A stretch of DNA of 64,000 nt from Branchiostoma lanceolatum (taxonomy: Eukaryota; Chordata; Leptocardii; Amphioxiformes; Branchiostomatidae): contig NC_089736.1 in assembly GCF_035083965.1 (NCBI RefSeq), positions 2,152,501 to 2,216,500 on the forward strand, in the 5' to 3' direction. A program made the position numbers and the translations under genes. Under the pieces are notes generated by a model. That model had not been told where the DNA came from. It did no database searches and worked only from the letters and a program-made list of their open reading frames with translations. Below, one piece after another: positions 3,498 through 62,459 of this stretch (position 1 is its first letter; every line of letters begins with the position of its first letter).

Positions 3498-3682
3498 TAC
3501 ATTTGCGAGGTCAAGTTACCGTGCGATAAATGTAATTTGTGAAAATGTTTTTCGTTGTTGTTGTTGTTGTTTTTAGCCTATACAATTGAATTCGTAGTAA
3601 TAACGTAGCACCAAAACACCTCTAACGGAATGTTGTTGGTAACTGTAAAATATCAATAATCATGGACGAGGCAGGGATACTC

Positions 3683-3898
3683 TAGCCTCTACCAGGTTCC
3701 GTCCTATCGTTGGGAAAATAGTAGAAATCAGCCGCGGTACTTCACTATCCAGGGTAGGTCCGCTATACAGTAAGGTTCCATTCCGTTAATGGCAGATTGG
3801 ACCCTCTCTCCGTAGCTAACTCCCTTGGCATACTATTCACTCTATTAGGCTAATTTCTACTATTTTTCCAGCCATCCCGCGGAGCCTGGTAGAGGCTA
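3683..3898. mobile_element. MITE, TAGCCTCTACCAGG family, with 9-bp TSD
   Basis: A 216-bp element with termini TAGCCTCTACCAGG and CCTGGTAGAGGCTA; the arms continue through a TAGTAGAAAT / ATTTCTACTA block. It is flanked by an exact 9-bp direct repeat, GGGATACTC, at 3674-3682 and 3899-3907. Degraded relatives lie at 14238-14534 and 20629-20727, sharing the internal TTTGACCCTCTTTCCGTAGC-like block. No coding capacity. The 9-bp duplication suggests mobilisation by a Mutator-like transposase, which is inference. Confidence 0.85.
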
Positions 3899-3907
3899 GG
3901 GATACTC

Positions 3908-6576
3908 TAACAGGGCCATGTGAATACCACCGCCCTCCCAAATCTCGCAGCTGTCCGATTCTATTCCCCTGCCTCATCATTAAGACTCGTGTTGGAGATT
4001 TGGTTACGATGTTTGGGAGTTACGGGGTGCGGGGAATGTTTGACTGGTAGTTTTGCCACACAAGTGTCGGCGCTTGTGGACGTTTTGCCACACAAGTGTA
4101 GCTGACTTTGTAGGTCTGGAATCCGTTACCCTGTTGCAGTCTGTAGGTCGAAGGTTAAGCGGGGGTCTCAGACCAGTGTCAACAACACCGTACACACCGA
4201 CCTGGGATCCCCGTATGTACAGTTGGAGCCACGCGTGGCGGGAAAATGGACATTTCACGGTTATTAACACTGGCTGGCGCTCTGATAGCACTAGCATATA
4301 GCTTGAGTGTAACGTGTTTTCCTATTGCTATTCCTATATAATTAGCCATTATCATCGTAATACCCCAACCTCACTCGCAATGCTGCTCGTACTAGCAGAA
4401 AATGTCAAGAAAAAACATCATAACTTTGCTTAATTTTCCTCACTGCTTCCGACGCAGCCGTTATTGTCTAAAAATAGAACGTGCTGTCCCGCATGCGAAA
4501 TTAGGAAACGTCGATAAATGACCTGGAAAACAGATCGATGTTCCAATACAATGAACGGCTAGTATGAGAGTATATGCTGACGATGTTTATGAATATCAAT
4601 ACTTTCTTTTAGTTTTACAGTGGTGGAACCTTTCATACAATTTGCAATAATTACAAGCCGTGATCAATAACTGCTATGGAAACTGATGTTTGTTGTTAGC
4701 ATAGAAACCTACAGGATCGTCCTTGTGTCTCATGGTGTGCGGTATAACTATTAAAGAGCGAACAACTGCGATCACACGAGACGGCGTGAGGCGTCTGCAC
4801 AGGTGTGACAATAAGGACAGATGGATGTCAGTGAGTGTGAAACAACAGGGCCCGGCGGGGTAACCATCACTCATCGGCCCGGACAGGCTCCTCTCAGGGG
4901 CACAGTGATGGCGAAATTTATCAAAATAAACCAACAACTCGACAAAGACACGAGTCGGACAAGGAAGGCCCAGTTGGGCCGATGGGGTTGTCTTCGCCTA
5001 GCCTCCGTTGCAGGCTCTGAACCGGCTTTTTGGGGGGCTAAATAATACACTTTTTGCAGCCAGCCCGTAACTATCAGCCAATCCCGTAACTATCTGAGTC
5101 TTCGCCCAATTTCGGACATTATCTGCGATTTCGCCATCCCTAAAAGGAGCCCGTATGAGACTACGAACAGACTGTTTCTGGACGTTATAGACCAGTCTGG
5201 GCACGGGGGTTACCCATTAGGACCGCCGGGTCAGGACGTTTTACCAATCAAAAAGTAGGTTACATCAGATGGGCATGCTAATGACTCCGCCGTCAGCCCC
5301 GCCACCATTGGCGCACCACCCCTGCCCTACTTCCCAAGGGGCAGACGGCTTGGTCAGGTCTATTTCTGTCCGGTCAAACGCCGAGTTCAACCGTCGCGCC
5401 ATAAACACAAATAGCTGTTTGCCCCACTCGAACGCAACAGTGTAGACGGCTCACCTCGTAACTTTGTGCACACAGAAAACATACCCGATAACCAGTATGG
5501 GAATGGCGGTGGCCGGCTGCACTTGGCAACATTACATACAACATGGTTCCAATTAACCTTCCGTTTCCCCTCTATTGGAAGTGGCAATATATATAGCTAG
5601 ATCAGTCAAGGGTTTCTTGCTAAGTGTCTTGAGACTTGCAATCCCTGATTTTGAATGTCTTCAAAGACAAGCAGTTTCTATAATAGTTGCTACACATGTA
5701 TCTGATATCGGGATATGATCGTCAAAACTACCAGTAAGCTACATAAACTAACAGTGGCGTTAGCTGCGTTACATACAGAAAATAATTTTTGGTTAGCTCT
5801 CCACTCCTGGAAAATTTTGTGCCAAATGTTTCCGCACAAACTAACGTTAGAGAACACCCCCCGCCCCCTGCCACGCCCCCACCCTATCGCTGTACCCTGG
5901 GCATGCTCGCCTGTGATGGTGAAGAGATAAACTCCAGCTTCGTTATTCATAAACATTAGATAAGGCCGTATTATCAAAATAAACTTTGCTGCATTTTTTG
6001 ATACTTTGAAGACACTCAACTATCTATTGGAGGACCTCAATCGGGTAGACCCCCCCCCCCAACACCATGTATCATGTTGAATCAGTACCACCAGATGGTT
6101 GTTTTCATCCTACGTGAAATATGTTTTCCGTGCTCTCCTTACATTTCTTTACAGCGTTCCAGACCACAGCTAGCTAGAGATTGAACTGTTTCATGCTGTG
6201 TATTACTATTTGTGTCGCATCTATTAGAAATCTACGTCACCATTGTCCAGCAAACGATGCACCAAAATTTAAACAGCACAGAACATATCATAACGTCTAC
6301 AACTGGGTAACTTACTCTTTTTAGTATACTCAGTACATACAAGACTTCATAAGATCGTAGGAAAAGATGAAATGAAGCTATACTGAAAAGTTTTGAGGCC
6401 GAACTGACGAGTCACATTACGTCATGACGTGTCGCAGAGTGACGCGCCACTGTCGCGATAAGGCGCGACACTACCCGACAGTCTGCAGACCAAGTGTTAT
6501 CTGGTCTATATGACGGGCTGTCCGTAGAGACAAACACACAAACAAACATGCCGTGAGGAGAACATGCCCCACTTAC
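3908..6576. other. Intergenic or intron of the minus-strand gene; no exon recognised
   Basis: If the exon at 6577-6707 is real, its first intron begins at 6576 and runs leftward here. I could not identify a second exon. There is a short direct repeat (GTTTTGCCACACAAGTGT at about 4043 and 4083) and a CRE-like spot TACGTCATGACGTG near 6420. No reading frame resembles a known protein. Confidence 0.45.
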
Positions 6577-18141: not shown

Positions 18142-18253
18142 TAGCCTGACTATCATCCTGTTTCAGTTCCAGGCTCTACATTCAGTGCTTTATCGAACAT
18201 TTTCATTTGGTGAAGGTAGAGCCTGGAACTGAAACAGGATGACACTCAGGCTG
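18142..18253. mobile_element. Hairpin MITE, AGCCTGAGTGTCATCCTG family
   Basis: Arms of about 37 bp, AGCCTGACTATCATCCTGTT...GGCTCTAC and GTAGAGCC...AACAGGATGACACTCAGGCT, are nearly perfect reverse complements around a loop of about 40 bp. The outer ends match the element at 30589-30658. A flanking duplication is not evident here. Confidence 0.85.
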
Positions 18254-20152: not shown

Positions 20153-20512
20153 TTCACCGCGAACTTAAACCACCCCAAAAATGCTTGTTCTGTCCGCCTA
20201 GTTCCTAATCTCCAAGCAGATATAACGGTGTGACGACGGTATGCAAAGGGATACAGCATCCAACTGGCTACCAGCAGATTCGCTTGGAGATTACCTTAAG
20301 CTTGTTTCAACCGCGAAAACTACCGCAAAATTAAATCCCCATTTACAGTAAATCCCATTAACATTGCGTGGTTTAATGTTAGAGGTTTTTGCAGTGATCT
20401 CACCGCGAACTTGAAACCACCGCAAATGCTTGTTTGGTCTTCTGCCTGCCTACCCCCTTGTTTCTCCCTACCGCGAAATTAAATCCCCGCGAAATTAAAT
20501 CCGCCTAGCCAC
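20150..20512. repeat. ACCGCGAA-rich repeat region with an embedded hairpin MITE
   Basis: Multiple ACCGCGAAC / ACCGCGAAATTAAATCC motifs, like a second cluster in opposite sense at 29440-29585 (AAGTTCGCGG). Inside lies a hairpin, 20206-20293, with ends TAATCTCCAAGCAGA and CGCTTGGAGATTA, a diverged relative of the CTCCAAGCAG MITEs. Confidence 0.6.
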
Positions 20513-21585: not shown

Positions 21586-21996
21586 CTACGTGCTCAGGCC
21601 AAAAACTGGCCCCTTGCTTTCTAGGAGGATCCTCCAAGCAGTCCTGTCCCTTGCCCTAGCCTCTGCTTCCCGACTGTTTAAGCCCGTGTCCTTCACAATT
21701 TGGTCTTTCCATCTCTTCGGTGGTCTCCCCCGGGGTCTGGGGGTAGCGAACTCCTGGCTGTAGGCTTTGTACACTAGTGTTTGTGGGAGTCGTCTTATGA
21801 CGTGTCCAAACCACCTCAGCCTTCTCGTCTGTACCATTTCCACGATGGTCTTTTTTGTTCCGAGTTTGGCGCTGATTTCAACATTTGGTTTGCGATCACG
21901 GAGCGTGATGCAGAGAATTGTAATCATAGTAAAGGTTAAGTAAAAAAAATGCTGTGTTGATAATCCTGGCTCGTCCCGATGATGCTCACGACTCAC
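21586..21996 (-). mobile_element. 3' end of a non-LTR retrotransposon (LINE) reading frame
   Basis: The minus strand encodes a stretch typical of the extreme C-terminus of LINE reverse transcriptase ORFs. It has RRLRWFGHVIRR, then PRPRGRPPKRWKDQI, then AEARARDRTAWR, ending at a stop after VFGLST. The order RWFGHV - RGRPxKRW - DRxxW is a hallmark of these tails. Upstream codons lose resemblance, and the RT catalytic core (YxDD) and endonuclease are absent, so this is a 5'-truncated dead copy. The recognisable part is about 21590-21880. Confidence 0.8.
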
Positions 21997-22431
21997 GAGA
22001 AGCTACAGGTTGAAGGATAAACAGGAGGCCGACCCATAACCATAATACATGTTTTCTGATTCACATATTTGCTAGCTCATGGACACCCTCTGTACTGCAA
22101 TTGGGGCGGGCTAACTTCTCAGTGGGCCTTGGCAACTACGTTTTTGCTTCCTAAGCTGTTGTTCGACACTCTTACATGGCAATATACTTTGACAACTGGA
22201 GGGGGTTGGATTTGGAAGGTCACAGGTGTGTATTATTCAACCGTTTGGCTGTCCAAAAATGGTGTCAGTGGCTGTCATGTTCTTTTATCATCATTTCTAT
22301 GTGTCTGAAAACTTTCCATTTTTTGCGAAATTGCAACTCAAGGTCCATTTTACCATTCTCTGCCCTTATAAAACCAACATCAGCTCTAAAGTATAATTAT
22401 CTGTATTGATCTGTTTGGAGCACTTGTAAAC
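21997..22431. other. Intergenic
   Basis: No supported exon or repeat seen. Confidence 0.4.
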
Positions 22432-23012: not shown

Positions 23013-24290
23013 ATGTGCATCATGGCGACCATGTCCATCCTGTCCATCCCCGCAGCATCACTCCTCTTCCTCCTCCTGACTGACGTCGTCACAGCTGTGG
23101 TCACCTGCCCAACCTCCTGCAGGTGTGTCGGTAGTCACGTGACCTGTCACAGCCACCTGACGCACGTGCCGGCGGACACACCTGCGCAGACCACCTGGCT
23201 GGACCTGAGTCACAACAACCTGACGTCACTGGACGGGCAGACTCTGTCTAACCTCGTCCATCTGAAGAGGTTGAACCTCTACGGGAACAGCATCCACAGC
23301 GTCGCAGACGACACTTTCACGAACTTGACAGACCTACAGTCCATAAACCTGGGTGACAATCGTCTGACGTATCTGAATCCCGAGGTCTTCACGGCTTTAC
23401 AGAACTTGAGAGGTGTGTACCTGAGCGGGAACCCGTGGATCTGCGACTGCCAGCTGAAACACCTGATCACTTGGGTGCGCACGTCAGCAGTTGTACAGTC
23501 GGGCAGGTGGGGTCCCACCTGTACGTCTCCGTCACAACTACGTCACACGCCGCTTGCACAGGTAGACCCGCAAACTCTGTGTCCGAACACGACACCTGTT
23601 AACGCGAAGAGCTCGCCCGACAAGGTTCTGACACGTTCAAGAACGCAACTGACCACCACGAGTAGCAACGGAAGACTGTCTACTATGACATACACAATTC
23701 CATCTTCAGTCACATCACCGCCTACTGCATCAACTAGTGCTGGATGTAGAGAACCTGACATACTGCAGAACATCACCATCTCTGACACAACTGTCCAATG
23801 GCAGACTAGTAACCCTGACGTCACAAGCGTCGTCGTGACGTACCAAGTACCTGATGTGGCCCCACGACGGACCCGAGTCCTGCACCATCGTCGGAGCCGT
23901 TTCATCCTGAACGGACTCGAACAGAACACGCCCTACGTCATCTGCGTCCTTCCCGTCTACCGGAGAAGACGCTGCTCTCTGACCAACACCACCTGTGTGC
24001 AGGTGAAGACAGCTGGTGCGCCAGACCTGAAGAGCCGGTCTGTACCGCTGCAGAGGCCGGGAGGCCTCACCGTAGCAGGTGTCCTGGCGGCCGTTACTAT
24101 TGCTGCCACTGGCGTACTGATGATCATCATTCTGCGACAGGTAAGAACTTCACCATCTCATGATTACACACAGGACGAAAACGTAATACTTTACCATAGT
24201 GATTCCGGGTACAGTCCAAACTGCACAAGCCGACCACTCAGGGGAGGGGAACGATGGAGCATGGTCTTTATGGACAGGTGGGCACTATAG
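23013..24290 (+). CDS. LRR and FN3-like single-pass membrane protein
   Basis: Starting at the ATG at 23013 (the first after the acceptor at 22991), the protein has a signal peptide (about 1-30) and a cysteine-rich LRRNT cap (CPTSCRC, about 32-38). About four leucine-rich repeats follow (55-135, LxxLxLxxNxL pattern), then an LRRCT cap (NPWICDCQL, about 138-190). After these come a Ser/Thr-rich linker, a fibronectin-III-like segment (about 250-345) and one membrane helix (350-376). It is therefore a cell-surface protein with extracellular LRRs, of the adhesion or receptor type abundant in amphioxus; the ligand is unknown. Directly after the helix lies a perfect donor, CAG|GTAAGA (24140/24141). 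The remaining 49 residues to the stop at 24290 may be read-through into an intron, the real tail coming from an exon at 24486 or beyond. Confidence 0.8.
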   Translation: MCIMATMSILSIPAASLLFLLLTDVVTAVVTCPTSCRCVGSHVTCHSHLTHVPADTPAQTTWLDLSHNNLTSLDGQTLSNLVHLKRLNLYGNSIHSVADDTFTNLTDLQSINLGDNRLTYLNPEVFTALQNLRGVYLSGNPWICDCQLKHLITWVRTSAVVQSGRWGPTCTSPSQLRHTPLAQVDPQTLCPNTTPVNAKSSPDKVLTRSRTQLTTTSSNGRLSTMTYTIPSSVTSPPTASTSAGCREPDILQNITISDTTVQWQTSNPDVTSVVVTYQVPDVAPRRTRVLHHRRSRFILNGLEQNTPYVICVLPVYRRRRCSLTNTTCVQVKTAGAPDLKSRSVPLQRPGGLTVAGVLAAVTIAATGVLMIIILRQVRTSPSHDYTQDENVILYHSDSGYSPNCTSRPLRGGERWSMVFMDRWAL

Positions 24291-25262: not shown

Positions 25263-28200
25263 CATGCCCAATTAGTGCCTCTATTTGTTCACATCAGCCT
25301 TGAGCCTGTAACCCGACGCGTCACGACCCTGAGCTCTTACAGATAAACTTGAACTCCACTCAAGGCCCTGCCGGACAGAGGGGTTAGAGGTCAGCTCCCG
25401 CGAGCGGGCCGGAATACCGCGGACCAATTAGCGAGTTGACGCTGCCACGCGCGGCGCACGGCCGGATGGACGGACATCAGGGGGTGTTACGGACTTTGAT
25501 ATCCTTCTTATTAGCCTCATGCAGGGACAAATAACCTCACAGAACCGGTACAATCTCCTCTTATGGCTCGCCTGAAGGGTTTTGCCCGCCAGGGGACGAT
25601 ATTGAGTAATCCCCAAGCAGATGCGGATGTGTTATTGTGGCTCCTTTGCAGCGTTGGTGACATACATGTAACATCATCACTCAAACATGTACCCAAACGG
25701 CAAGAACTTCCTGGAAGTTGTGCAAAGGAAGCGCAAAATAACATATCTGATTGGATCATGCAGAATAGCGGGCAATAAAAGTTGTCTTGACACATATAGC
25801 AACAGGTATTCTGTCCTCAACGTTGGCATCTCCTACCTGCATCAAGTCAAGAACACCCCTATCGTTCGATTCATTGGCTCGCTCGCAATAGAGTCTGTAA
25901 TACAGACTAAATAGAGTCTGTAATACAGACTCTATTCTTGACCACCCTCCTAAAAGCAGGACCTCTATATCTATCACTCTGTAATATCTGTGCCCGGTAT
26001 CTGTGCCTGTAATAGCAGACGTCTAAAGATGAACATATAACACTTACAACAGACTATTTAACATTCTGTTTCTGTTCCTAGGTACACACCGCTCCACACT
26101 TGATAAATAACGGTCCGCCCCCTCTGAAACCGTCCAAATCAACGCGTCCACAGACGGCGATGATGACGTCATGTGCCCGGTGGGTGGGGAGTGGGGAGGG
26201 GGGCGGTGATCAGGTCTGTACACATAATGTAAACATCAACATATTCTATTCTTCGAAAAGGTCAAGAGTCACTCGTGCAAGGTCACGAGGCTGCGTACCA
26301 GACAGGGCCGAACTTCTGACGCAGCCTGTTCACGTCCGCGTTTTGTGTGAACGTGGCTGCTCAAAAGGGCAAGTACCAGTGAATAGACATGAAGTGTTAG
26401 ACATTACTCATTAGCATCTACTGTTTGGGCGAAGGTTGTGTATGGAACGCTTTTCAGACATTGCTGTACTTTAACTCTTAAACATGGTGACAAGAAAAAA
26501 ACTTTCCGACGTGAACGATTTTCCTACCCTGCAAATATTTCAAGTCTGTATAAATTTATCACTTTCAAATTCAAAGGCCATCGGCCTACTTTTTGCAGAG
26601 TTGTTCGGGCAATTTAAAACGTGCCTTCCAAAATATTAAGTCAATTCTAAATGGGCAACAACGTATGTTACCAAGAGGGTGTACAGACATAAGCTGAGTT
26701 GTTGAGCAAAGCTCGAGATAAGAGTCGCCCACCATTAACAATGTTTGAGGTATCCAAGCTGGGCCATGCTGAACAGATTTGGGCCACAATAACAAACGTG
26801 AATGCAACTCGGACTGACAGGACATGGGAAGGTAGGGAGCTCATACCGGCATGGAATGAGAACGACACCGCAAAACTTCCGATCTAAGCCTAAAAGGACT
26901 TTAATGGCTATAGATTTCTGAACTCTCTTTCAGTGACATATTTCTAGACGATAGAAAATGAGTCAGGAGTGAGAGGTGAAGTGGGGGGGGGGGGAATATC
27001 CATCATTACTGCACAGTAAGGGGCGGAGGACCAAAGTGGCGACCAAAAATAACCCCTAATCGTGCTCATAGCGCGGCATGTACAACATGGTTGTGATAGC
27101 TCCACTCCAAAACACCGGGATAGTTTGTCTGGGAGACGTGACTGAAATGAAGGGTGTCCTACCGTTTGTGAAACTTTCGCACCCGAGTCTTGAACGTTCA
27201 CGTCGCTCTGTGGCAGAGCGCTCGGGCATGGTCAGGGCGAGTCGGACGTGTGGTCTCCTCGGCGGCAGAGCGCAGACTGTACGGACCGCGGCGCGCATCT
27301 GCCCGCCCTGTAACGTGAGAAGCACACTGACCCGCGGGTCAAGCTGATCCCCTTCCCGCCATGAATGCTAGTTATTCCCGCGCAGCCCGCGGGGAAGCTC
27401 CCTTTTCCGAGAAGGTTAAAACAAAGTCGTAAAGAGAGGAACACACGCCGCCGCTACTGCCTTTAAAGGGACGGCATATGTTGGCGTTATCAACGGGACA
27501 AATATAAGTCAAGTCCTGGCAGGGGAAAATCGTTATAAGTATGAACTGAGACCAATGACCATGAGACCAATTCTAGTGCTAAATGGCTGGCCCTCTTCTC
27601 TAGCTGGAAAACATTCCGAGACTGGGCGAAGAAGGCTGGAAACAAATATGAAAGGGGTGGGGGGGGGGGAACACACGAACGAACGAACAGCCAATAGGCG
27701 ATAATCGAATTCGCGAAACTAGCATCATAGAACTGTTCAACAGTAACATGGTCTTCACTTTGTCCCTCATGAGATCAGTGATCATCAGAGTGAGAACGTC
27801 CAAGGTGCTCTCATGAAATCATATTTTGACATCATTGCCCCTGTTGAGACATGTGAGGTTATGTGAATGTGCCATGGTTCAAACCAATTTTGCAATGTGC
27901 TTGCTAACCCTTTCTCAAAGAAAGACATGGTTGCTGTTTTTCAGTTCTCAACATACCGTCCCTGTTATTGTAGTTGTCGTCCCTACAGATGGCGACATGT
28001 TGCCGTTGAAAGAAAACATCTTATCTAAACAGTGTAGCGATGTGGTGGCGAGTGGGGGCGGACCCGGGCGTGAGAACCTGCTGACGGAATTGGTCGCAAA
28101 GCAGTAAAAAGACGAGACTCTTTGAGAGCCATGTAGGCAGAATATATTCATCAGAATCGCCCCTATCACTCACTTACTCTCTCTCATAGCTTAGTCAGCC

Positions 28201-28625: not shown

Positions 28626-28749
28626 TAGTCTCCAAGCAGACCTATGGGTTGCAAAGACCGTATCCAACTGGCAGAAGGAGTTTTTATAGCAAAACTTCTT
28701 CTGCCAGTTGGATACGGTCTTTGCAACCCGTAGGTCTGCTTGGAGACTA
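28626..28749. mobile_element. Hairpin MITE, TAGTCTCCAAGCAGACC termini, 9-bp TSD
   Basis: A 124-bp near-perfect foldback. Arms of about 55 bp begin TAGTCTCCAAGCAGACCTA and run through GGTTGCAAAGACCGTATCCA, with a loop of under 20 bp. An exact 9-bp duplication, CATGCAATG, flanks it at 28617-28625 and 28750-28758. The closest relative is 61433-61553, in an intron of P450 F. The very few arm mismatches indicate a young insertion. Confidence 0.92.
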
Positions 28750-30356: not shown

Positions 30357-30539
30357 TACTCTCCAAGCAGAGGTAAGATCTGGGGTATTTTCGACGTATT
30401 TTCGCGGTATCTTATTCGTCTTTCTACTTTTCCGTTTTATGTTGGGTCGCCCTCCTCTAAAGAGAAAAGTAAAAAGACGAATAAAATACCGCGAAAATAC
30501 GTCGAAAATACCCCGGATCTTACCGCTGCTTGTAGAGTA
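30357..30539. mobile_element. Hairpin MITE, TACTCTCCAAGCAGAGG termini, 9-bp TSD
   Basis: A 183-bp foldback. Its arms include TACTCTCCAAGCAG(AGG), TATTTTCGACGTATTTTCGC and TCTTATTCGTCTTT, each with its complement on the right. Flanks TTTATCTAT (30348-30356) and TTTCTCTAT (30540-30548) match at 8 of 9 bases. Confidence 0.9.
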
Positions 30540-30588: not shown

Positions 30589-30658
30589 TAGCCTGAGTGT
30601 CATCCTAGTCACAGACTTTCCCTTCACCAACCAACTAACTAGGATGACACTCAGGCTG
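30589..30658. mobile_element. 70-bp MITE, YAGCCTGAGTGTCATCCTAGT termini, 9-bp TSD
   Basis: Twenty-base perfect inverted ends enclose a 28-bp core. Exact flanking repeats GCAACATTG lie at 30580-30588 and 30659-30667. It is 50 bp from the MITE at 30357 and shares termini with the element at 18142. Confidence 0.92.
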
Positions 30659-38029: not shown

Positions 38030-39233
38030 TTTATGCTGAATTGTGAAGGCCAGGAGTCACTTTATGAATGAATGAAATTTAAAAGAATCTCTGTTAACAA
38101 TATTAGAAAGCTAATCTATCCTATATACTGCAAGTTGTAACTAATAACCTTTGTATCACAATATACTGTCATATACAGATGATACAGTCTTGTTTTTGTA
38201 ATCAGGTATATCTTGAAAAGAATTAGGCGGACATAGAGTTGGGTATAATAACAGCATCATATAAGTCTGTTGCCTTCTAGATCAGAATCTTTCTCAAAAG
38301 AGGACCAAATGTGTATCTTGACAGGTGATAATCCCTGCATTGTAAACATATCACAGTACATAAGACACTGCAGAATGTTAGATAGTCCACCCCACCAGTT
38401 CTGGACAAACCGGACAAAAGTTTTCCCTTTTCTATGCTCAATTTATTTGTGATTCCCAATTCTTAAATTTGTGATTACTGCTTTCAAGACTTATTTAAAA
38501 CTTCAAAAATCAAAATGTTTGAAAATTATGTTATTTACATGTATTCCACCTTGACGTTGCGAGAGGTACTAATCAATGATATAAGGTCTAGGGCAATGTT
38601 ACATTTCTCCTACCTGGCAAGCAATAAACAGGATTATGAATACAGTTGTGTGTACGGCATTTTCCCTTGCGTTTCCATGATGTATTACCATGTAAACGCG
38701 TATGATCATGGATACGTGCGCTTTTCCGACAAAGCAAACATTGATGGAGTCTGTTTAAGATATGACGAATCACTGCTAATTGTCCGTGGGGTAAGAACTG
38801 GACATTGAACGTACGTGACGGTTTGTTTAACTGATCGACAAACGTCTGGTTCATTGCCAGTAGGTGCGTCCCTTACTTGTTTGTCTACTGCATTCCTGAC
38901 TTTAAAATGCTGCAGTGTTCAGGTGGTCCGTGGGAGAAGGACCGAGCATTGGACGGTCGGTTTGTTTTAACCGATAGACAGGTAGTTTTACTTTAACAGT
39001 TTCTCCTGATTAGGGGAGGGCTAGACTAGTCTAAAGGTGTGTAAAACGGATTTGCGGACATTGAACAGCCCAGTTTGTTTGAACTGAATAGACGGACATG
39101 TTTACTTTTGCCGGTTCAGGGGGTAGTAGAGAGGTGCACAGAGCGGCCGTGCGCATGACCACTTCGTGACTGATCACAATGGAGTCCATAGATCACGGTA
39201 TCTAACTGGGTCATCCACTGCATTCGTGAGAAA
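38030..39233. other. 3' flank of P450 A and upstream region of fragment B
   Basis: 38040-38720 is paralogous to the 3' flank of P450 C (45160-46000) and includes a shared AATAAA (38623-38628), a candidate polyadenylation signal. 39110-39165 (GTGCACA...GCCGTGCGCATGA) matches DNA upstream of P450 D (46150-46185). The last 50 bases before 39234 match the leader of A. No other gene is present. Confidence 0.6.
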
Positions 39234-39565
39234 ATGGCCGGTGCTGTCCAGTGGATAGCCGAGACCTTCCAGGAGATATTGCAGCTCTCTGGGCTAACTC
39301 TGCAGACGTCTCTTGTCCTCTGTGCGACTTTCCTCTTCGCATATGTCATCTTCAAGCGTCCCCGAAACCTGCCTCCCTACCCGGCAGGACGTGTGCCTGT
39401 TCTCGGGCACCTCCTCGCCTTGGGCCGAGCGCCTCACCGCAAGCTGACGGCTTGGAGGCGGCAGTACGGGGACGTCTTCACCGTCAGGATGGGGATGAAA
39501 GATGTGGTGGTTCTGAACGGCTACACTGCCGTCAAGGACGCGCTCGTGGACAGGTCCGAGCTGTT
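39234..39565 (+). pseudogene. Solo, truncated P450 first exon (fragment B)
   Basis: The ATG and about 110 codons match exon 1 of the neighbouring P450 genes, including the membrane anchor, LPPYP hinge and [14 protein letters not shown]. Similarity stops abruptly inside the codons for FAS, and the frame ends five codons later (WEGF stop). The last 50 bp of the exon and its donor are missing, and no exons 2-7 follow before P450 C. It cannot make a P450. The intact reading frame and near-identity to its neighbours suggest recent origin or gene conversion. Confidence 0.9.
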
Positions 39566-40140
39566 GTGGGAGGGATTTTAATGTAACCCAGCTGACATAT
39601 TTATACACAGAAGGACCCTACACCCTACAAGGATACAAAAAAATATATACATATATGCGTGGGTGGCGTGGAGCAATAATAAGTTCTAGAGTCTTGTTGT
39701 CCTCAGTGGTTTTGGAGTGTTGCATGTGTGTCTCAAAGTACGTCCAGTTCCGTCCTGATTTCCCCTATTTGAACATGTCAAAACCCCGGGTAGCTGTGTC
39801 AACAGAAGCGGAGGTCACCTGTTGGTCAGTACTGATAAGGCGGGTAGTCTAGTGTAGTGTAGCTACATAACAAACCTACAGGCTTACTCAGTGTTAACGC
39901 ATTAATGCGTTTGGTTCATTTGCATGTCATTCTTCATTTGGCCTAATTGGAAGTGCAAGGCCTGCTACTCACCGAAACTTTCACACGAACAGAACAGACT
40001 AAAAAATGTCCACATCCACCCTGAAGAGAAAGTGTAGAATGTCTGAAATGCAAATATGTCCATGTTATCAACCTGTGCCTGGCTAACAATCGAGATATAC
40101 CAGCGAATGTATCCTAATTAAATACAGTGGCATTTCCAAC
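39566..40140. other. Spacer between fragment B and P450 C
   Basis: No P450 exon remnants seen. 39895-40080 resembles DNA upstream of gene A near 33790-33930 (CATTAATGCGTT, CAGACTAAAAAA and CACCCTGA blocks), marking the start of the duplicated segment. Confidence 0.5.
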
Positions 40141-45143: not shown

Positions 45144-46212
45144 TTTATGCTGAATTTTGAAGGCCAGGAGCCACTTGATGAATGAATGAATGAAATTTAA
45201 GATAAACTCTGTTTAAACAATGTTAAACGCCTCATCTATCCTATATACTTCAAGAGGTAAGTAATAACCTTTGTCAACGCAAGTATTGCAATATATTGTC
45301 ATATACAGATGATATAGTCTCGTTTTTGTAATCATTTATATCTTGAAAAGAATCAAGCGGACATAGAGTTGGGTATAATAACAGCATCATATAAGTCTGT
45401 TGCCTCCTAGACCAGAATCTTTCTCAAAACAGGATCAAATGTGTATCTTGACATGTGATAATTCCTACATTGTATACATGGAACAGTACATAAGATACTG
45501 GCCAAGTGTTAGATAGCCCAGCCCCCAACAGTTCTGGATAAACCAGACGAACCCTTTGATCAACAGATTTTTCCTTTTACTATGCTCAATTTATCTCTGA
45601 CTTCCAATTCTTAGCGTTGTGATTACCTCTTTCAAGTCTTGTGTAAAAGCTTAGAAAATCAAAGTGTTATTTACATGTCTTCCACCTTTAAGTTGCGAGA
45701 AGAACTAAGGTCTAAAACTAAGGCAATGTTACATTTCTCCTACCTGGCAAGCAATAAACAGGATTATGAATACAGTTGTGAACGCGGCATTTTCCTACTC
45801 TCCAAGCAGAGGAGTGGGTCCGGCAGGTTTTTGACGTGTTTTTAGGCGTTTTTGTCGGGCTTTCTACTTTGTCATGTTCTACAAAAAAAACATAACACCT
45901 CAAAAACCTGCCGGACCAACTCCTCTGCTTGGAGAGTAGCATTTTCCCTTGCGTATTAATCATGTATTACCATGTAAACCCGTATGATCATGGGTACGTG
46001 CGCTTTTCAGGCAAAGCAAACATTGATGGAGTCTGTTTAAGATATGACTAATCACTGCTGATTGTCCGTGGGGGTAAGGACCGGACATTGGACGCCCAGT
46101 TTGCTTTAACTGAATGGACGGACAGGTTTACTTTTGCCGGTTCAGGGGTTAGGGGAAAGGTGCACATAACAGCCGTGCGCATGAGGATTTAAAGACAGAA
46201 TTTTAGACAAGA
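45144..46212. other. 3' flank of P450 C and upstream region of P450 D
   Basis: Paralogous to 38040-39165. It has the same AATAAA at 45753-45758. The shared flank is interrupted by the MITE at 45796. The final 60 bases (GCCGTGCGCATGAGG then TTTAAAGACAG) form the putative core upstream region of D. Confidence 0.6.
45796..45938. mobile_element. Hairpin MITE, TACTCTCCAAGCAGAGG termini, 9-bp TSD with empty site
   Basis: A 143-bp foldback with ends TACTCTCCAAGCAGAGGAGT and complement. GCATTTTCC is duplicated on both sides (45787-45795, 45939-45947). The paralogous flank of gene A has the unoccupied site with a single GCATTTTCC at 38657-38665. The insertion therefore postdates the A/C duplication. 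Confidence 0.95.
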
Positions 46213-51359: not shown

Positions 51360-51633
51360 TACACAACATATACATATACATGTACATATCTTATCCACAC
51401 TTGCATTATGTGGAATTGTCGCAAGGGTCTTGGCGGCTGCCATTCGGCGCCACCAGGTGACCTCAATACGACCTTCCCCAACCGAAGTCAGGTACCCATT
51501 TACACCTGGGTGGAGTAAGGAATTCGAAAGTCGTGTAAAGTGCCTTTCCCAAGGGCACAAGATCGGTGACATGACAGGATTCGAACTCGGGACCTCTTGG
51601 TTCTGAGCCGAACGCTCTGCCGTTGAGCCACTT
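51360..51633 (-). mobile_element. tRNA-derived SINE
   Basis: On the minus strand the head reads GTGGCTCAACGGCAGAGC (A-box-like TGGCTCAACGG) and then CCGAGTTCGAATCCTG (B-box-like GTTCGAATCC), the internal polymerase III promoter of a tRNA. The tRNA part lacks a proper acceptor stem and runs into about 200 bp of tRNA-unrelated body (GGGAAAGGCACTTTACACGA, CCACCCAGGTGTAAATGGGT). This is the classic SINE layout rather than a functional tRNA gene. The tail is poorly defined. Confidence 0.75.
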
Positions 51634-51662
51634 ATTATTACACATACATGGTACGAAATACA

Positions 51663-52585: not shown

Positions 52586-55500
52586 ATGGCTGCCGCAGTG
52601 TTCAGGTGGATATCTGAGTCCGTCCCGGAGATTTTGCAGATCTCTGGGCTGACTCTGCAGTCTTTTTTCGTCTTCTTGGCGGCCTTTCTCCTGGCATATT
52701 TTCTGTTGAAGCGCCCAAGAAACCTTCCTCCATACCCGGCAGGACGTGTGCCTGTTCTCGGGCACCTCCTCGCCTTGGGCCGAGCGCCTCACCTCAAGCT
52801 GGCGGCGTGGAGGCGGCAGTACGGGGACGTCTTCACCGTCAGGATGGGGATGGAAGATGTGGTGGTTCTGAACGGCTACACTGCCGTCAAGGACGCGCTC
52901 GTGGACAGGTCCGAGCTGTTCGCGTCCAGGCCGCCGAACTACCTGTTTGATGTGGCAGCTGGTTTTGGAAAAGGTAAGACCAAGGACATTATATAATGTC
53001 CTTGGTAAGACATTGCCTTTCCCTTCTTCTTTCGAAACTTGTTGCAGTATACTGTATAGGAATATTCGTTTTTGTATCCATACATATATATGCACTAAGA
53101 GAAGAAACAGGAGAAAGTGTACACCTTCTTCCTCCATACCCTACAATTGGGCAAAACTAAGAACGACGCTGTTACCTCCCCCCCCCCCCCCCCAACGTAC
53201 GTATATCAATAAAGATTACAGGTACAGGTATTTTTCCATAGGTACACTACAGTATAGCTAGTCATTAGGAAATAGCATTTCACGAAGACAATGTGCTAAA
53301 TCAAGAGTTGTCTGGAACGTCTTGAGTGAGAAAGTTCAAATTCTAAATGCAACATTTGTGACCTACACAGAAGGGGGCATTCATATTTAATAACGTATCA
53401 AAAGCGTCTTCTTTTTTTTCCTGAAGATGTAGTTGGTGCACGATGGGGGACGGAGTTCAAGCAGAAAAAGAAGTTCGCTACCGCCGCCCTGAGGAACCTG
53501 GGCATGAAGGTCGGGACTGGCAGCTTTGAGGAGAACATCCGAGTGGAGGCGAAATATCTTCGAGATAGGGTAAGTTGAAATATCAAAATATCATATCTCC
53601 TGTAAGTATATTATCATAAAGGTAGATATCGTTGACCAATCAGAAGGCTCCATTTGCGGGTCTGTAATCTTCATACAGAAAAGTAGGTCTGTAAACGTCG
53701 TATGGGCCCGCGGGTTTGTGAACTTCGTACGGAGCCGGTGTTCGAACGTTACCATTAAATGACAGGGGGTTTTGTTTTTAGATTTCATGTTAAGACAAAT
53801 ACTACACAAATCAAATACAACACAAAGTACTACTACAGTGTAAATACTATATGGACAATGGCTATATGATAATAACGTTAATGACCCGCTTTCCTTCGGT
53901 CTACACGGTGTGATAAGGCATGGTCGTTCATATAACCACCTCATAAAGTGCCTCGGTCGCGATAGGAACGACCATGCCTTATCACATCGTATAGACCGAA
54001 GGAAAGCGGGTCATTAACCCTATATTAGCGTATCATGCTTTCAGCCTGAATGTCTGCTGGACAAATTTGTCACATTGCTGGTGATGATGGAAATCTATTT
54101 AGATTGCAGAACACAAGGGAGAACCCATTGACATCGCTCATGACGTCACCGTGACGGTGGCAAACGTCATCTGCTCCATGGCGTTCGGGAAGCGGTACGA
54201 CTACGAGGATGAAACGTTCCGCGAGCTCTCGGAGGCGGTTGTCACGGTGATGTATGAGGTTGGAGCAGGACAGATCATCAGCGTCTTCCCTTTGCTACGG
54301 TTCGTTCCTGGAGGTCAGTACATAACTTTTTAATTTTTTTTTAAGCCCCGGTTATGCTTCGGTCCCAATTTAAAAGTCTCATGCTGATGTTTTCTACCAT
54401 TATTGCCATGCACAGTGAACCGAGCCAGCTTGAGGCTATCTGAACAACTCGCCAAGATCAAACATGTGTTGAAAGAAGAAATTGCTCACCATCGGGAACG
54501 TCTGGATCGCGAGAACCCGCGAGACTTCCTCGACTTCTGCCTGCTGGAGCTTGAACAGCAGGAAAAGGTGGACGGTATGACGGAGGAGAATGTCATGTAC
54601 ATGTCTGTGGATTTCTTCGTTGGGGGAATAGACACCACCACCAACACACTGCTGTGGAGTCTTCTCTACATGACTTTGAACCCCGACATCCAAGATAAGG
54701 TAATTATCAGCACAAAAAGTTACACGGCATTTCTCAGACTCAGTAGAGTCTGACGATTACTTAAACTCTAGGCTTCAGTATTTATTTACAACATTTTCCC
54801 TTCCTTTGCAAACGATATTGACCGCCAGTCATGATTACTCCACACTTTTCTTGTGACTTCTAGAAAGCCTTAAGATGTTTATAAGGATTGGCTCAATACA
54901 ATTTTGCTTTAACAGGTGCTTTTCTTGTGACTTCTAGAAAGCCTTAAGATGTTTATAAGGATTGGCTCAATACAATTTTGCTTTAACAGGTGCTTTTCTT
55001 GTGACTTCTAGAAAGCCTTAAGATGTTTATAAGGATTGGCTCAATACAATTTTGCTTTAACAGGTGCAGCAGGAGCTTGATGCCGTTGTTGGCGAGAGTC
55101 TGCCCGCCCTGTCCCACCGTTCCCAGCTGCCCTACGTGAATTCCTGTCTGCTGGAGGTAATGAGGATCCGCTCAATTCTACCCTTCGCAGTTCCTCACGC
55201 CACCACTGAGGCCGTCAAAGTCCTTGAGTTTGACATTCCCGAAAGCACTCAGGTATGCTTGTTTTGATATGTACCATAGGATTGCACATTCATTTTGCAC
55301 TGTTGCTGACATATTTCAGAAATAAGGAATCTAGTGGCACAGCGGCTTATTCCGACTCAGATGATGATATAGATGATTGCAGTCTTCGCCCCCTCTGGTA
55401 GAACATACAGAAAGTGCAGTGCACAAACACACACGCGCGCGCCCACACACACACTCGCGCGCACACACAGACACACGCACAAACACGCGCACGCACACAC

Positions 55501-56244: not shown

Positions 56245-57306
56245 TTACTTTCACCAAGGCGGTTTAGTATTAGGGGCGTGCATGACTGAAAAAGCCGTAG
56301 AAGTAGGCAAGATTAAGAAACAAATGATAATTATGTGGTTTGGAAAAAGGAGATAGTGATTTCATATTTGTGACACATGCGAGTTATGTAGTAGGTACAT
56401 TAAGTCAAATATCATACACATGAGGTGATTTCCATAGTTCATAATACTGCCTAGAGATGGTATGGGATTGTCGAACTCTATGCTGAGTTGTAAAAGGTAG
56501 GGGTCACTTAAAGCACAAAAAAAAATCATTGTTCCACCGTTTTAGTAGACACGATGTATGGAAACACATACTTGAGCACATTTTTAGAAGACCAATCTAT
56601 TCTATGTACTTCTAGCTATAACACAGATAACTTAGTAACTTCAGTCATTGTCAATGCAAGCATGATGATATACTGTCATATCCGGATGCTTTGGTCTCGT
56701 TTTTGGAATCAGTTACAAAACTGTGTGCCGCCTTGTGATATACCAGAATTTATCTCATTGAATAAGAATGCCACATTTACATACTGCATGTGATAGTCCC
56801 TAAATCGTAGGGCAGTTCATAAGAAGCTGCCTTTTTACAATAAGCAAATGTTTTCATCTTCCACCAGTTCGTGACAAAATGGGCAATCCTTTGGATCAAC
56901 AGAAGTTTCTTCTTTATATGTTCAATTTCTGACTTCCATCTTAGCTTTGTGATCACATCTATCAAGTCCTGTTTACTTTTTCTCCAGTTTGGTTGCGGGA
57001 GGAACAAATGTGTAAGGCAAGGTTACCTTAACCCCACCTGGTGAACAATGAATATTAGTAACTTAGACTGTCAACATTTACGACATACAGGTTATTTGCC
57101 TATTTTTGGCATGTTGACCACCGTCGGAGGGCAATGAGATTTGTTTTTTTATTTCGAAATCAGGCGAAAATTAATGAGCGCGCTGATGTCATCCATGAAA
57201 ATTACTTGCTGTGGCCTAATGACGTAGTCGTCGGACGACCTCGTATGTCCACCGGCAACAAGGGTCTTGCGCACGCGCAAATATGTTGTCTGCATTCTTG
57301 ACAAAA
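56245..57306. other. 3' flank of P450 E and upstream region of P450 F
   Basis: 56585-56715 resembles the 3' flank of D (CATTGTCAA, TGTCATATCC and CTCGTTTTTGGAATCAGTTA). Directly upstream of F the DNA is GC-rich with TTGCGCACGCGCAA (57267-57280), a palindrome with a CACGC core of the type bound by bHLH-PAS (AhR/ARNT) factors; regulation by them is speculation. No TATA box is obvious. Confidence 0.45.
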
Positions 57307-60300
57307 ATGGCCGTAATTGTCAGCTGGATAACTGAGTCCGTCCAGGAGATTTTACAGTTCTCTGGGCTGACTCTGCAGACATTTCTCGTCTTTTGTATGG
57401 TTTTCCTCCTGGCATGCGCCCTCGTGAAGCGTCCCAGGAACCTGCCTCCTTACCCGGCAGGACGTGTGCCTGTTCTCGGGCACCTCCTCGCCTTGGGCCG
57501 GGAACCTCCTCTAAAGCTGACGGAGTGGAGGCGGCAGTACGGGGACGTCTTCACCGTCAGGATGGGGATGGAAGATGTGGTGGTTCTGAACGGCTACACT
57601 GCCGTCAAGGACGCGCTTGTGGACAGGTCCGAGCTGTTCGCGTCCAGGCCGCCAAACTACCTGCTTGACGCGATTGTTGGTTGCGGAAAAGGTGACTGTT
57701 CTTTCCCTATTAATTTTTCCTTATCCAGAGGGGAAAATTGTCTTTCTTTGACACACCACCCGACTGCTAGCATGCTACTACAGTTTAGCTTCGTGAAAGA
57801 GCAGATCTTGAGGAAACTACGGATCACCTGTTTCTCTACGCCCTGAGGGCAAGAGTTATTTCTTTCCAAGATATATATAGAAGGCGCAGAGATATGGGTC
57901 AGTGACAAAATTGCGCTTGTAACGTTTGGTAACATAAATTCGGGATTTTTCCGATAATGGTTGACTGAAATCAATCTAGCAGAACAATAAACAATCATTT
58001 TTTTCTATTTTTCTGTCAGTATCATGCACTATCTTTGCACTAATCATATATATGGTAGATTTTGTCTCTAGTCGTGCTGACACCATAATATTTCAACTTG
58101 AAACTACCTCCGCCGCACTCACAATGACGGTGCTGTCGGACAGGGGGGCACATTAATTCGGGAGAGAAGATTCGTCTTGAATATCTTACCGCTAATCACA
58201 TTTTATACAGCAGCTATTCGTTCCATCCTTGGCTTGAGAAGAGTGCTATGGATATAGACGTGTCCAAGTAAAAAAAATACACGAAAAAACGGCCGTACCG
58301 CACGCATCAGGCCTTCGGGAACAACCCGTGTGTTGAGTCGGTAGAACGTCACTCAAAGTTCACCCCCACCGTCATGGAAATTTGTACATTATTCATCGGG
58401 GCGTTAGCTGGATGCCGTAGAAATGGTAATACTACTAAGTCCACGTGTTTCTGCTTGTGCTAAGAGCAAACTTTGAGGAAAATATCGCCATCAGTCCACT
58501 ATCACACACAACATTTAGACAAAAAAGTGTTCCTCGCAAACGTTTGTCGTCTGCCGAATAGCAGGATTCTGGGTAACGAATATGGCGGCGGGAAAATTCA
58601 CCTTAGTGCCGTAGCCATTGGTTGTAGCAACAAAGAGGCGTTTTAATTTGATGATTAATCACACTTAGAGTCCAGTTGTAGGTTAGCAAAAGAGATTCTA
58701 ATAAGTTGTATTGTAAATAATTGTGTTTAGCAGGAAGCGGATGTGACATTTGTCTTATAAACCAGCGAACAACTATGTACATATAATTCTCCCACGAAGC
58801 CCTCAGACTGTGACAATAAGGGACGGAGAGTTTTTGACGTAGCCAACTTCTAATGCATGGTTATCGAAGCTTTTCAGACAGTGTTCTGAATGCGTTAGTC
58901 TGTCAAGTTTGCATTTCTAGCGGTATTACTGATGTTGCATCTAGCACATATCCCTAAACACCCCGTTTTCGAAAAATCCCGAATTTAAGTACCCCGCGAA
59001 TTTATGTTACCCAACGTTACTCGTCTAAAGCGTGCTAGCGCAGATCTAGACAACCCCAATGGCTCTCTTTATACGTACCTATAGGACAGTTGGCAAGAAT
59101 GGGGTGTAGATCTATACTCCAAAGACTGGAAAGAGATAGATGGCCTCTTTCTTCAATATGGGACAACCTATATGCTAATGCCCTAGATATGTGTGTACGG
59201 TGGATTATATATTAACGACCCACTGCCCATTCGTCTACGGCATGAAGCAACGGTCTTTGGAGCCTTTACCTTTTACCGTCATACTCAACCTGTACTGCAC
59301 AGTTTACATTGCAATCTTTTTGAAATAAGACGTCTTCGTTTTTTTTCTTAAGAAATCGTTTCTGCACGCTGGGGGCCCGAGTTCAAACAGAGAAGGAAGT
59401 TCGCTACCGCCGCCCTGAAGAATCTGGGCATGAAGGTCGGACGTGGCAGCATTGAGGAGAAGATCCGAGAGGAGGTGAACTGTCTCCGCAACAGGGTAAG
59501 AGTAGATCAAATATGGATCTTTGTTTTACTTCAACCCAAGTGTAAGGTACTAAATGTCTGTTTGTTTGTCTGTGTCTGTGTGTGTGTGTGTGTGTGAGTG
59601 TGCGTGTGTGTCTGTCTGTGTGCGTTTGTGTGTGTGTGCCTCTGTGTGTGTGTCTGTGTGAGTCTGTCTCTCTCTCTCTCTCTCCCTCTCTCTCACTCAC
59701 TCTCTCTGTGTGTGTTTCTGCGATATACGTGGTCCACAATATACACATACACAATACAGTTAGTGTACTATCGTTCAGCCTTAGTGCTATGTTGTGTTCG
59801 TCTGTGGAACTGGAAGACTTGCAAAGCAGTATGGGTAAGGGGTAAAGTCTGCTGCCAGTTCTGAATTTCTTTGTTTTGATACTGTTTGCCGCTGTTCTGG
59901 TTGATCAAAGTAAACTCGGTCGTTTAATGAGATTTTGTTATTTGAATAGTTGCCATGTAATGAACTAAACAGCATGCCTTCCTATCGTGTTCAGATTACA
60001 GAATACGATGGACAGCCCTTTGACATCTCAAACGACCTGAGCGTGGCAGTTGCAAACATCATCTGCTCCATGGCGTTCGGGAAGCGCTACGAGTACGGGG
60101 ACGAAACGTTCCGAGAGCTCCTGGAGGCGGTGATGAACGTCATCGCCGAGCTGGGAGCGGGGCAGATCATCAGCGTCTTCCCTCTGCTGCGTTTCGTTCC
60201 CGGGAGTGGGTAACATCTAATGCACTCGTTTGTTCATCTTTAGTTTACGGAAAGTTGCAACGCTAAAATAACCATATTTCAACATTTCAACACAGAGACA

Positions 60301-60356: not shown

Positions 60357-62459
60357 TACACACACACACAGAGACATACATGCAGACACACACACACTCG
60401 CACACACACACACATACACACAGAGAGACATGGATGCACATACATTCACACACACATATATACACACGCACACACTCACATATCCTCACACAAAATTGGA
60501 CAAAACAGACAAGTCTGCAAAACATTATGTTGACAGCTATCGTGTCAGGAGAACCCTTTGCCAGGTTTTTATGTCCTGTCCTTTATTCCTAGTAAACCGA
60601 GCATATATGGAGGTGCTCAAACAGAACGCCAAGATCCACGGAGTGCTGTGGGATGAGATATCTCGTCATCGCGAAAACCTGGATCGCGAGAACCCGCGAG
60701 ACTTCCTCGACTTCTGTCTGCTTGAGCTTGAACAGCAGGAAAAGGTGGACGGTCTGACGGAGGAGAACATCATGTACATGGCCCAGGATCTGTTCTTCGC
60801 AGGAACCGAGACATCTACTAACACACTGATGTGGAGTCTACTCTACATGACTTTGAACCCCGACATCCAAGATAAGGTATTCGTTACCAACCTATAGAAC
60901 ATGACAACCTTATTCTTCTGCTTTGTATCTGTATCTGTATCTATATAGCCAGTAAAACCGCCATTAGGCACAACGCACCAGCTTCGAAGCTTTGAAGTCA
61001 CATTCGGACCGAACATTGAAGTGGTTACACGAGAAATGAGGTTTAATGCTCAAAAAAGTCTCTGATAAAACATATGTAACATAGACGCATCATACAGTCT
61101 TCCAACACAAGATGATCCCCACACGGTGACCACCTTTCATCATTAACGGCGGTTTTGTCCACACAGATACAACAGGAGCTTGATGCCGTTGTTGGTAAGA
61201 GTCTGCCCACCCTGTCCCACCGTGCCCAGCTGCCCTACGTGAATGCCTGTCTGCTGGAGGTCATGAGGATCCGCCATATCGCTCCACTCATAATTCCTCA
61301 CGCCACGACTGAGACCGTCAAAGTACAGGGATACGACATCCCCGAAGGAACTCAGGTACTTTTAGTTTGTGATGTGTGAATCATATTTTCTGAATATGAT
61401 ATGTAATAGAAACCAGTGCTGTACGTGGATCATAGTCTCCAAGCAGACCTACGGGTTGCAAAGACCGTATCCAACTGGCAGAAGGAGTTTTTATGGCAAC
61501 TCGTGTTACTTCTGGATACAGTCTTTGCAACCCGTAGGTCTGCTTGGAGGCTACATGGATCCCGCGTTGTCATTGCCATCACTTTTTACAGGTCCCTTAG
61601 ATTATTTTCCAATTGACTCAAATTGATGCTATTAATCTTTTCTTGGTATGCTTGGTCTAGGTGTTGTTGAACATGTACTCCCTCCACACGGACCCCGCCT
61701 ACTGGCCTTATCCGGACCGGTTTGACCCCGAAAGGTTTCTGGACGCGGAAGGGAACGTCATCAACAAGCCTGAGTCCTTCATGCCTTTTGGAGGAGGTAA
61801 GCGTAATAAATAGATCGCATTTTACTAGTACATGTATTAGGATTGATGATTTTTATTGCTGATGTATGGTTCATCTTACCGTGTGAATCGCACGGAAATT
61901 ACCGTGTGAATCGCACGGAGTACATGTTTTGGTGTGTTTATTTGAGTCGGTGTGTGTCCGCAGGTATTATCTCCATGAAAAATGGAGATATAGTTTTGGG
62001 TGCGTCTATGTGTGTTTGTCTGTTTGTCAGTTTGTGTTTCCGCACTACTGTAGTCAGCATAACTCAGGAACCTCTTGATGGATTACGATGAAATTTGGTA
62101 TGTGGGCAGGTGTTGTGAAGCCGAAGTTCAAGGTTGCTTTGGGCCCCCTGGTATGTGACCTTGGTACTGCAGCATAACTTCCATTTTTGTATCTCTTGAC
62201 CTGGACATGCTATGGTCTTGATTTTTTGGTGGCGGATAGATGTTTAATCTGATTTCATTTTGTGCTATTTCTAATTCTAGGGCGACGTGGGTGTCTGGGT
62301 GAGCAGCTGGCCAGGATGGAACTTTTTCTGTTCTTCTCGACCCTGCTGCAGTCCTTCACTTTCAAGGCGCCAGAGGGCGCTCCAACTCCTCGCTCGGATG
62401 GCATCTTTCGCATGACGTTGACGCCGCATCCGTTTGAACTCTGTGCGATTCCGCGTTAG
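57307..62459 (+). CDS. Cytochrome P450, CYP2 family-like (copy F)
   Basis: Exons: 57307-57691, 59353-59495, 59995-60205, 60593-60876, 61167-61355, 61661-61796 and 62281-62459; 508 residues. An in-frame ATG 24 bases upstream exists, but 57307 matches the paralogous starts ([16 protein letters not shown]). Motifs are LPPYP, I-helix AGTETS, EVMR, PERF and [11 protein letters not shown] with Cys454. The C-helix reads FKQRR. The exon 3 donor is GTGGGT, and the split codon at that join is ATA (Ile) where the siblings have GTN (Val). Introns are loaded with insertions: a 1.09-kb transposon (intron 1), CA/GT microsatellites (introns 2 and 3), a hairpin MITE (intron 5) and a dispersed repeat (intron 6). 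None disrupts a splice site. Confidence 0.92.
57927..59013. mobile_element. 1.09-kb non-autonomous DNA transposon in intron 1 of P450 F
   Basis: Ends TGGTAACATAAATTCG (57927-57942) and CGAATTTATGTTACCCA (58997-59013) are inverted, and the match extends inward to GGGATTTTT / AAAAATCCC. ACGTT precedes the left end (57922-57926) and follows the right end (59014-59018), a probable 5-bp target duplication. The interior has no long reading frame. Confidence 0.85.
59571..59722 (+). repeat. GT then CT microsatellites in intron 2 of P450 F
   Basis: Imperfect TGTG repeats merge into TCTCTCTC near 59669-59700. Confidence 0.95.
60297..60482 (+). repeat. CA microsatellite in intron 3 of P450 F
   Basis: ACAC repeats with GACATA and TGCA interruptions over about 185 bp. 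Confidence 0.95.
61433..61553. mobile_element. Hairpin MITE in intron 5 of P450 F, sister of 28626
   Basis: Same arms as 28626-28749 (TAGTCTCCAAGCAGACCTAC, GGTTGCAAAGACCGTATCCA), with more decay near the loop. Flanks CGTGGATCA and CATGGATCC match at 7 of 9 bases, consistent with an older 9-bp duplication. Confidence 0.9.
61961..62235 (+). repeat. Probable dispersed repeat in intron 6 of P450 F
   Basis: Starts at an inverted pair TATCTCCATG AAAAATGGAGATA and continues TTTCCGCACTACTGTAGTCA, GCATAACTC and GATGAAATTTGGTATGTG. I recognise this style of block as common in invertebrate repeats from memory only. A TCACCTCCATG...TTTGTGGTTCCG block at 63895-63955 may be related. Confidence 0.4.

Follow-up and report, generated by a model that had tools for sequence, protein, structure and literature searches.

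The closest described counterparts of the elements reported here are the nonautonomous Mutator-like elements of animals known as Muta1 and Phantom (PMC5225508, PMC6446971), which, according to the available portions of those accounts, share with them target duplications of 8-9 (8-11) bp as well as nonautonomous derivatives that have common ends and inverted repeats of varied length. The likeness is one of description and, unlike Muta1 and Phantom, the present group has no link to a transposase. The Mutator/Foldback family Tm1 (PMC3169594) offers a second parallel in its foldback shape, its mostly 9-bp duplications and its MITE-like members, but differs, as far as the available part of its description goes, in having composite inverted repeats, tandem 13-15 bp repeats and the outer motifs CGGTTAA and CCTACCC, so that its ends are not those of the present group. 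The elements compared with these systems lie in a single window, by which we mean the whole 64-kb stretch of DNA that was analysed (Table 1). Amphioxus MITEs were reportedly described by Osborne in 2006, under the name LanceleTn, and the resemblance there would be that both are small MITEs of a lancelet, provided that the window comes from one. Literature queries with an exact 15-mer, with an 11-mer together with transposable elements, and for Mutator target site duplications in amphioxus returned no match, and the three papers returned for six 13-mers were unrelated, judged by title. The available parts of a lancelet genome paper (PMC4284660), of a lancelet paper on opsins and transposable elements (PMC5802833) and of PMC9673378 contain nothing on this group.

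An occupied and an unoccupied site between P450 genes

The initial annotation held that the 3' flanks of two P450 copies, A and C, are paralogous and that a foldback interrupts the flank of C, and alignment on both sides of the insertion site bears this out: GCATTTTCC stands on either side of the foldback in C, and only once, with no insert, in A. Close to the site, 75 of 80 aligned columns match the paralog on the left (with one 6-base gap) and 142 of 155 on the right (with one gap); when the flanks are joined, minus the insert and one repeat, 215/235 aligned columns match, with 8 gap positions. Farther to the left the similarity drops to 77% over 384 columns (paralog 38301-38665), and on the right the flank matches 38657-38811 at 91% over 156 columns. 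As had been claimed, this pairing of filled and empty sites fixes both the ends of the element and the length of its target duplication. The bases immediately outside the repeats (G and C) differ from the last and first bases of the element (A and T); the repeat therefore cannot be slid along the alignment, and the duplication is exactly 9 bp. A 9/9 match at the spacing of the element occurs at 0.14% of 200,000 random places in the window, and its chance under equal base frequencies is 3.8e-6. An assembly artefact was considered and dropped, because the same duplication length recurs in three other copies. A comparison of the 64-kb window with 300 bp of flank from either side of each of the other five copies revealed no second empty site; in that comparison the left flank alone of the copy at 25607 is a true flank, its right end being not yet set, and the paralogous exon blocks around the copy at 61433 stop short of the insertion site.

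The inserted sequence has the character of a MITE, being short, bounded by inverted terminal repeats and without a transposase gene. Its two arms agree at 17/17 positions of the terminal TACTCTCCAAGCAGAGG and at 38/40 over the first 40, and an arm search extended the match to 46 bp at 96%, a length that includes one flanking base pairing by chance. Folded as a single DNA strand together with its flanking repeats, the element reaches -54 kcal/mol versus a shuffle mean of -15.9 (z -12.8, with 0/200 shuffles as good), and z remains at -11.8 when the flanking repeats are removed. With a probability of roughly 90%, we regard it as a non-autonomous cut-and-paste DNA transposon, a foldback MITE with a 9-bp target-site duplication, for which transposase would be supplied in trans. 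It is an ordinary kind of mobile DNA, seen unusually clearly.

Table 1. Coordinates of the 143-bp element, its empty counterpart and related copies in the window
Feature	Position	Strand	Basis or flanks
Foldback MITE, 143 bp	45796..45938	no strand	fold and arm complementarity
Left inverted-repeat arm, about 45 bp	45796..45840	+	arm alignment
Right inverted-repeat arm	45894..45938	-	arm alignment
Left copy of 9-bp target duplication, GCATTTTCC	45787..45795	+	
Right copy of 9-bp target duplication, GCATTTTCC	45939..45947	+	
Single GCATTTTCC, unoccupied paralogous site	38657..38665	+	alignment of P450 flanks
Related MITE, 124 bp, near-perfect hairpin	28626..28749	no strand	duplication CATGCAATG, 9/9
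Related MITE, 183 bp	30357..30539	no strand	flanks TTTATCTAT/TTTCTCTAT, 8/9
Related MITE, 121 bp, between paralogous exon-like blocks	61433..61553	no strand	flanks CGTGGATCA/CATGGATCC, 7/9
Older related copy, 88 bp	20206..20293	no strand	flanks CCTAGTTCC/CCTTAAGCT, 4/9
Decayed related copy	25607..25760	no strand	left end clear, right end approximate (by eye)

The annotation also dated the insertion after the duplication that gave rise to A and C. Given the empty site in A, this is the simplest reading and a likely one; the order is nonetheless unproven, since Mutator-like elements can excise precisely, and a site vacated in that way would look just as empty. The available text of PMC5225508 puts the share of precise events at about 90% for MULE excision in yeast, as assayed at sites with duplications. 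An element that predated the P450 duplication and was later lost from copy A in this manner would, however, require an extra event, and we consider that history improbable. A third paralogous stretch (56961-57176), which aligns weakly across the site and lacks the 143-bp insert, also speaks against it. The alignment of this stretch to the empty A flank, with gaps at the site, was better than 200/200 shuffles, although its right half alone was no better than shuffles (158/200 as good). When five other P450 intergenic stretches were compared with the empty A site, four had scores of 27-44, comparable to shuffles (maximum 44 among 30), and one scored 61.

Related copies and a recurrent 9-bp duplication

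Scanning the window for TACTCTCCAAGCAGAGG with up to three mismatches returned nine places versus 0.14 expected, two of them being the element's own ends. All nine fall in six elements, five complete and one decayed, which amounts to six related elements within 64 kb. The 143-bp element and its five relatives have in common the end motif TA-N-TCTCCAAGCAGA-N', and TA opens 10/10 ends of the five complete copies. Within the group, the copy at 61433-61553 is about 89% identical to that at 28626-28749. The left ends of the copies at 30357 and 45796 are identical over their first 17 bases, with interiors that are similar by eye; BLAST at E 1e-3 did not join these two. Folding energies of the copies at 28626, 61433 and 20206 (z -22.1, -12.2 and -3.2, respectively) each beat 200/200 shuffles, and the copy at 30357 has 81-bp arms that are 91% complementary.

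The 9-bp flanks of the five complete copies agree at 9/9, 9/9, 8/9, 7/9 and 4/9 positions, so that the constant duplication length expected of a MITE is seen, at 7/9 or better, in four of the five. At random places in the window with the same spacings, 7/9 is reached in 0.2-0.5% and 9/9 in 0-0.14%; the copy at 20206, with 4/9, does not exceed chance, since 4 matches occur at 17-18% of random places. When the four complete copies other than the 143-bp element are pooled, 28/36 positions match at length 9, compared with 17-40% at lengths 3-8 and 10-13 (6/32 at length 8, 9/40 at length 10) and 5/8 at length 2. The four clear duplications have no obvious common sequence, and in the decayed copy, with its approximate right end, no duplication was recognised. 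The tabulation of flanks that the annotation had called for came out, among the other complete copies in the 64-kb window, in favour of a 9-bp duplication in three cases and no better than chance in the fourth. Taken with the pooled count, these flanks suggest that duplication of 9 bp is characteristic of the family.

Beyond the window, exact 16-mer scans of viral_contigs and genome_contigs returned 42 and 41 stretches, respectively, and a search of these 83 loci for inverted partners (at most 4 mismatches, within 8 kb) gave 16 pairs in 14 loci. As their inner arms match at 3-12/24 and their 9-bp flanks at 6/9 at most, these pairs are read as chance and not as family members. In viral_contigs, a pattern of two ends separated by 85-115 bases, a spacing that takes in the shorter members, had 0 matches. 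The exact ends and duplication length now available for a six-member MITE group provide a basis for confident genome-wide searches for copies and for a transposase.

Several other foldbacks were observed in the window. Those at 18143-18252 and 30590-30657 have ends that read AGCCTGAGTGTCATCCT in 3/4 cases, the fourth being off by two bases; by eye, the latter has on both sides the direct repeat GCAACATTGT, 10 or 11 bases long (with an extra G on the right), and at the former no flanking direct repeat was recognised. A foldback at 53872-54023 has 69-bp arms that are 88% complementary and unrelated ends, and two more have arms of 63 bp (2116-2325, 83% complementary) and 73 bp (3661-3920, 74% complementary).

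Candidate sources of the transposase

A transposase encoded elsewhere in the genome and acting in trans would recognise the common end, excise the element and join it to a 9-bp staggered cut, where repair of the gaps would duplicate nine bases. A transposase supplied in trans and repair of a stagger are usual steps of cut-and-paste transposition, and it is movement of this kind that we infer for the group. The TA that opens every end of the five complete copies might suggest a Tc1/mariner-like element, with the outer TA as its duplication. Tc1/mariner duplications are indeed TA, but at the junction of the empty site TA is absent, and a single 9-mer stands there instead; this contradicts the mariner reading, which we reject as exceedingly improbable. 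Elements of the hAT superfamily duplicate 8 bp, a length at which the five complete copies match at 1/8 to 4/8 positions, and hAT was likewise set aside.

From the length of the duplication, a Mutator-like (MULE) source is our best guess and a reasonably probable one: MULE duplications measure 8-11 bp, with several animal groups listed at 9 (PMC6446971), and mosquito Muta families make duplications of 8-9 bp (PMC5225508), as stated in the available parts of these sources. The 9 bp found here lies within that range, and to this extent the Mutator-like mobilisation proposed in the annotation is sustained; on the other hand, neither a transposase nor a full-length partner turned up in the window. 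Ten ORFs, some trimmed, were chosen for Pfam searches from the 87 of at least 100 aa in the window, and none was identified as a transposase (three matched P450, one had leucine-rich repeats and fn3, and six had no match). TA ends are not, to our knowledge, a recognised label of MULEs.

The same MITE could instead have been moved by a non-MULE superfamily that makes 9-bp duplications, either Merlin or an undescribed one, a possibility that we entertain tentatively. Merlin duplications are 8-9 bp (PMC8101967, in its available part), and the survey in PMC6446971 reports, as far as its available text extends, limited evidence of MULEs in chordates, a point that matters only for a chordate host; its authors did not detect MULE transposases in lancelet. 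Merlin ends, however, carry a conserved 5'-GG according to the same part of PMC8101967, in place of the TA seen here, and Merlin was rejected on this account, while an undescribed superfamily is without positive evidence. Merlin, hAT and mariner all fit worse than a MULE source. In view of the limited evidence in that survey, a MULE source in a chordate host would be notable.

Complementary positions within the ends and genomic setting

The ends of the group hold an interrupted palindrome, N-TCT-CCAAGC-AGA-N', with a TCT/AGA stem around CCAAGC, closed by positions 3 and 16 as the outermost pair. Complementary letters stand at these two positions in 11/11 counted ends (A-T in 3, G-C in 4 and C-G in 4), made up of the ten ends of the complete copies plus the left end of the copy at 25607; the decayed right end of that copy, where both positions are T by eye and thus unpaired, was left out. 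The inner three stem pairs are complete in 7/11 ends and broken in 4/11, and a further TA occupies positions 18-19 in 7/11. Since the copies are related, the 11 ends are not independent cases; the three letter states occur in about three lineages, and the pattern was noticed before it was counted. The complementary change at positions 3 and 16 between subfamilies is a lead, not a result. Judging from these sequence patterns, it is conceivable, although rather unlikely, that each end must be paired or two-fold symmetric within itself, either for the enzyme that mobilises the elements or for a hairpin formed at the DNA end. If so, this transposon group, with its TA ends and 9-bp duplications, would have one more feature by which it is recognised. 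The complementary change is a testable hint on how ends are recognised.

The 143-bp element lies in a P450 cluster, to which the three ORFs with Pfam p450 matches belong; the first-exon ORF of another P450 copy (57295-57693) has P450 2B4 and 1A1 chains as its best PDB matches. One P450 copy has a conserved AATAAA (45753-45758) at its 3' end, and the insert starts 38 bases past it; the likely start codon of the next copy (46213) lies about 275 bp downstream of the end of the insert. Elsewhere in the window, the ORF with leucine-rich repeats and an fn3 domain (Pfam) encodes 421 aa (23025-24287), and an ORF at 21586-22002 resembles by eye the tail of a LINE reverse transcriptase, with no Pfam match up to E 0.01. 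ARAGORN found zero tRNAs in the window, and a weak tRNA-like Rfam match (29.5 bits versus a threshold of 29) lies on the minus strand at 51566-51637. By eye, a P450 first-exon-like ORF at 39234-39581 precedes the next first-exon-like ORF (start about 40404) by some 1.2 kb, and may be a partial duplicate.
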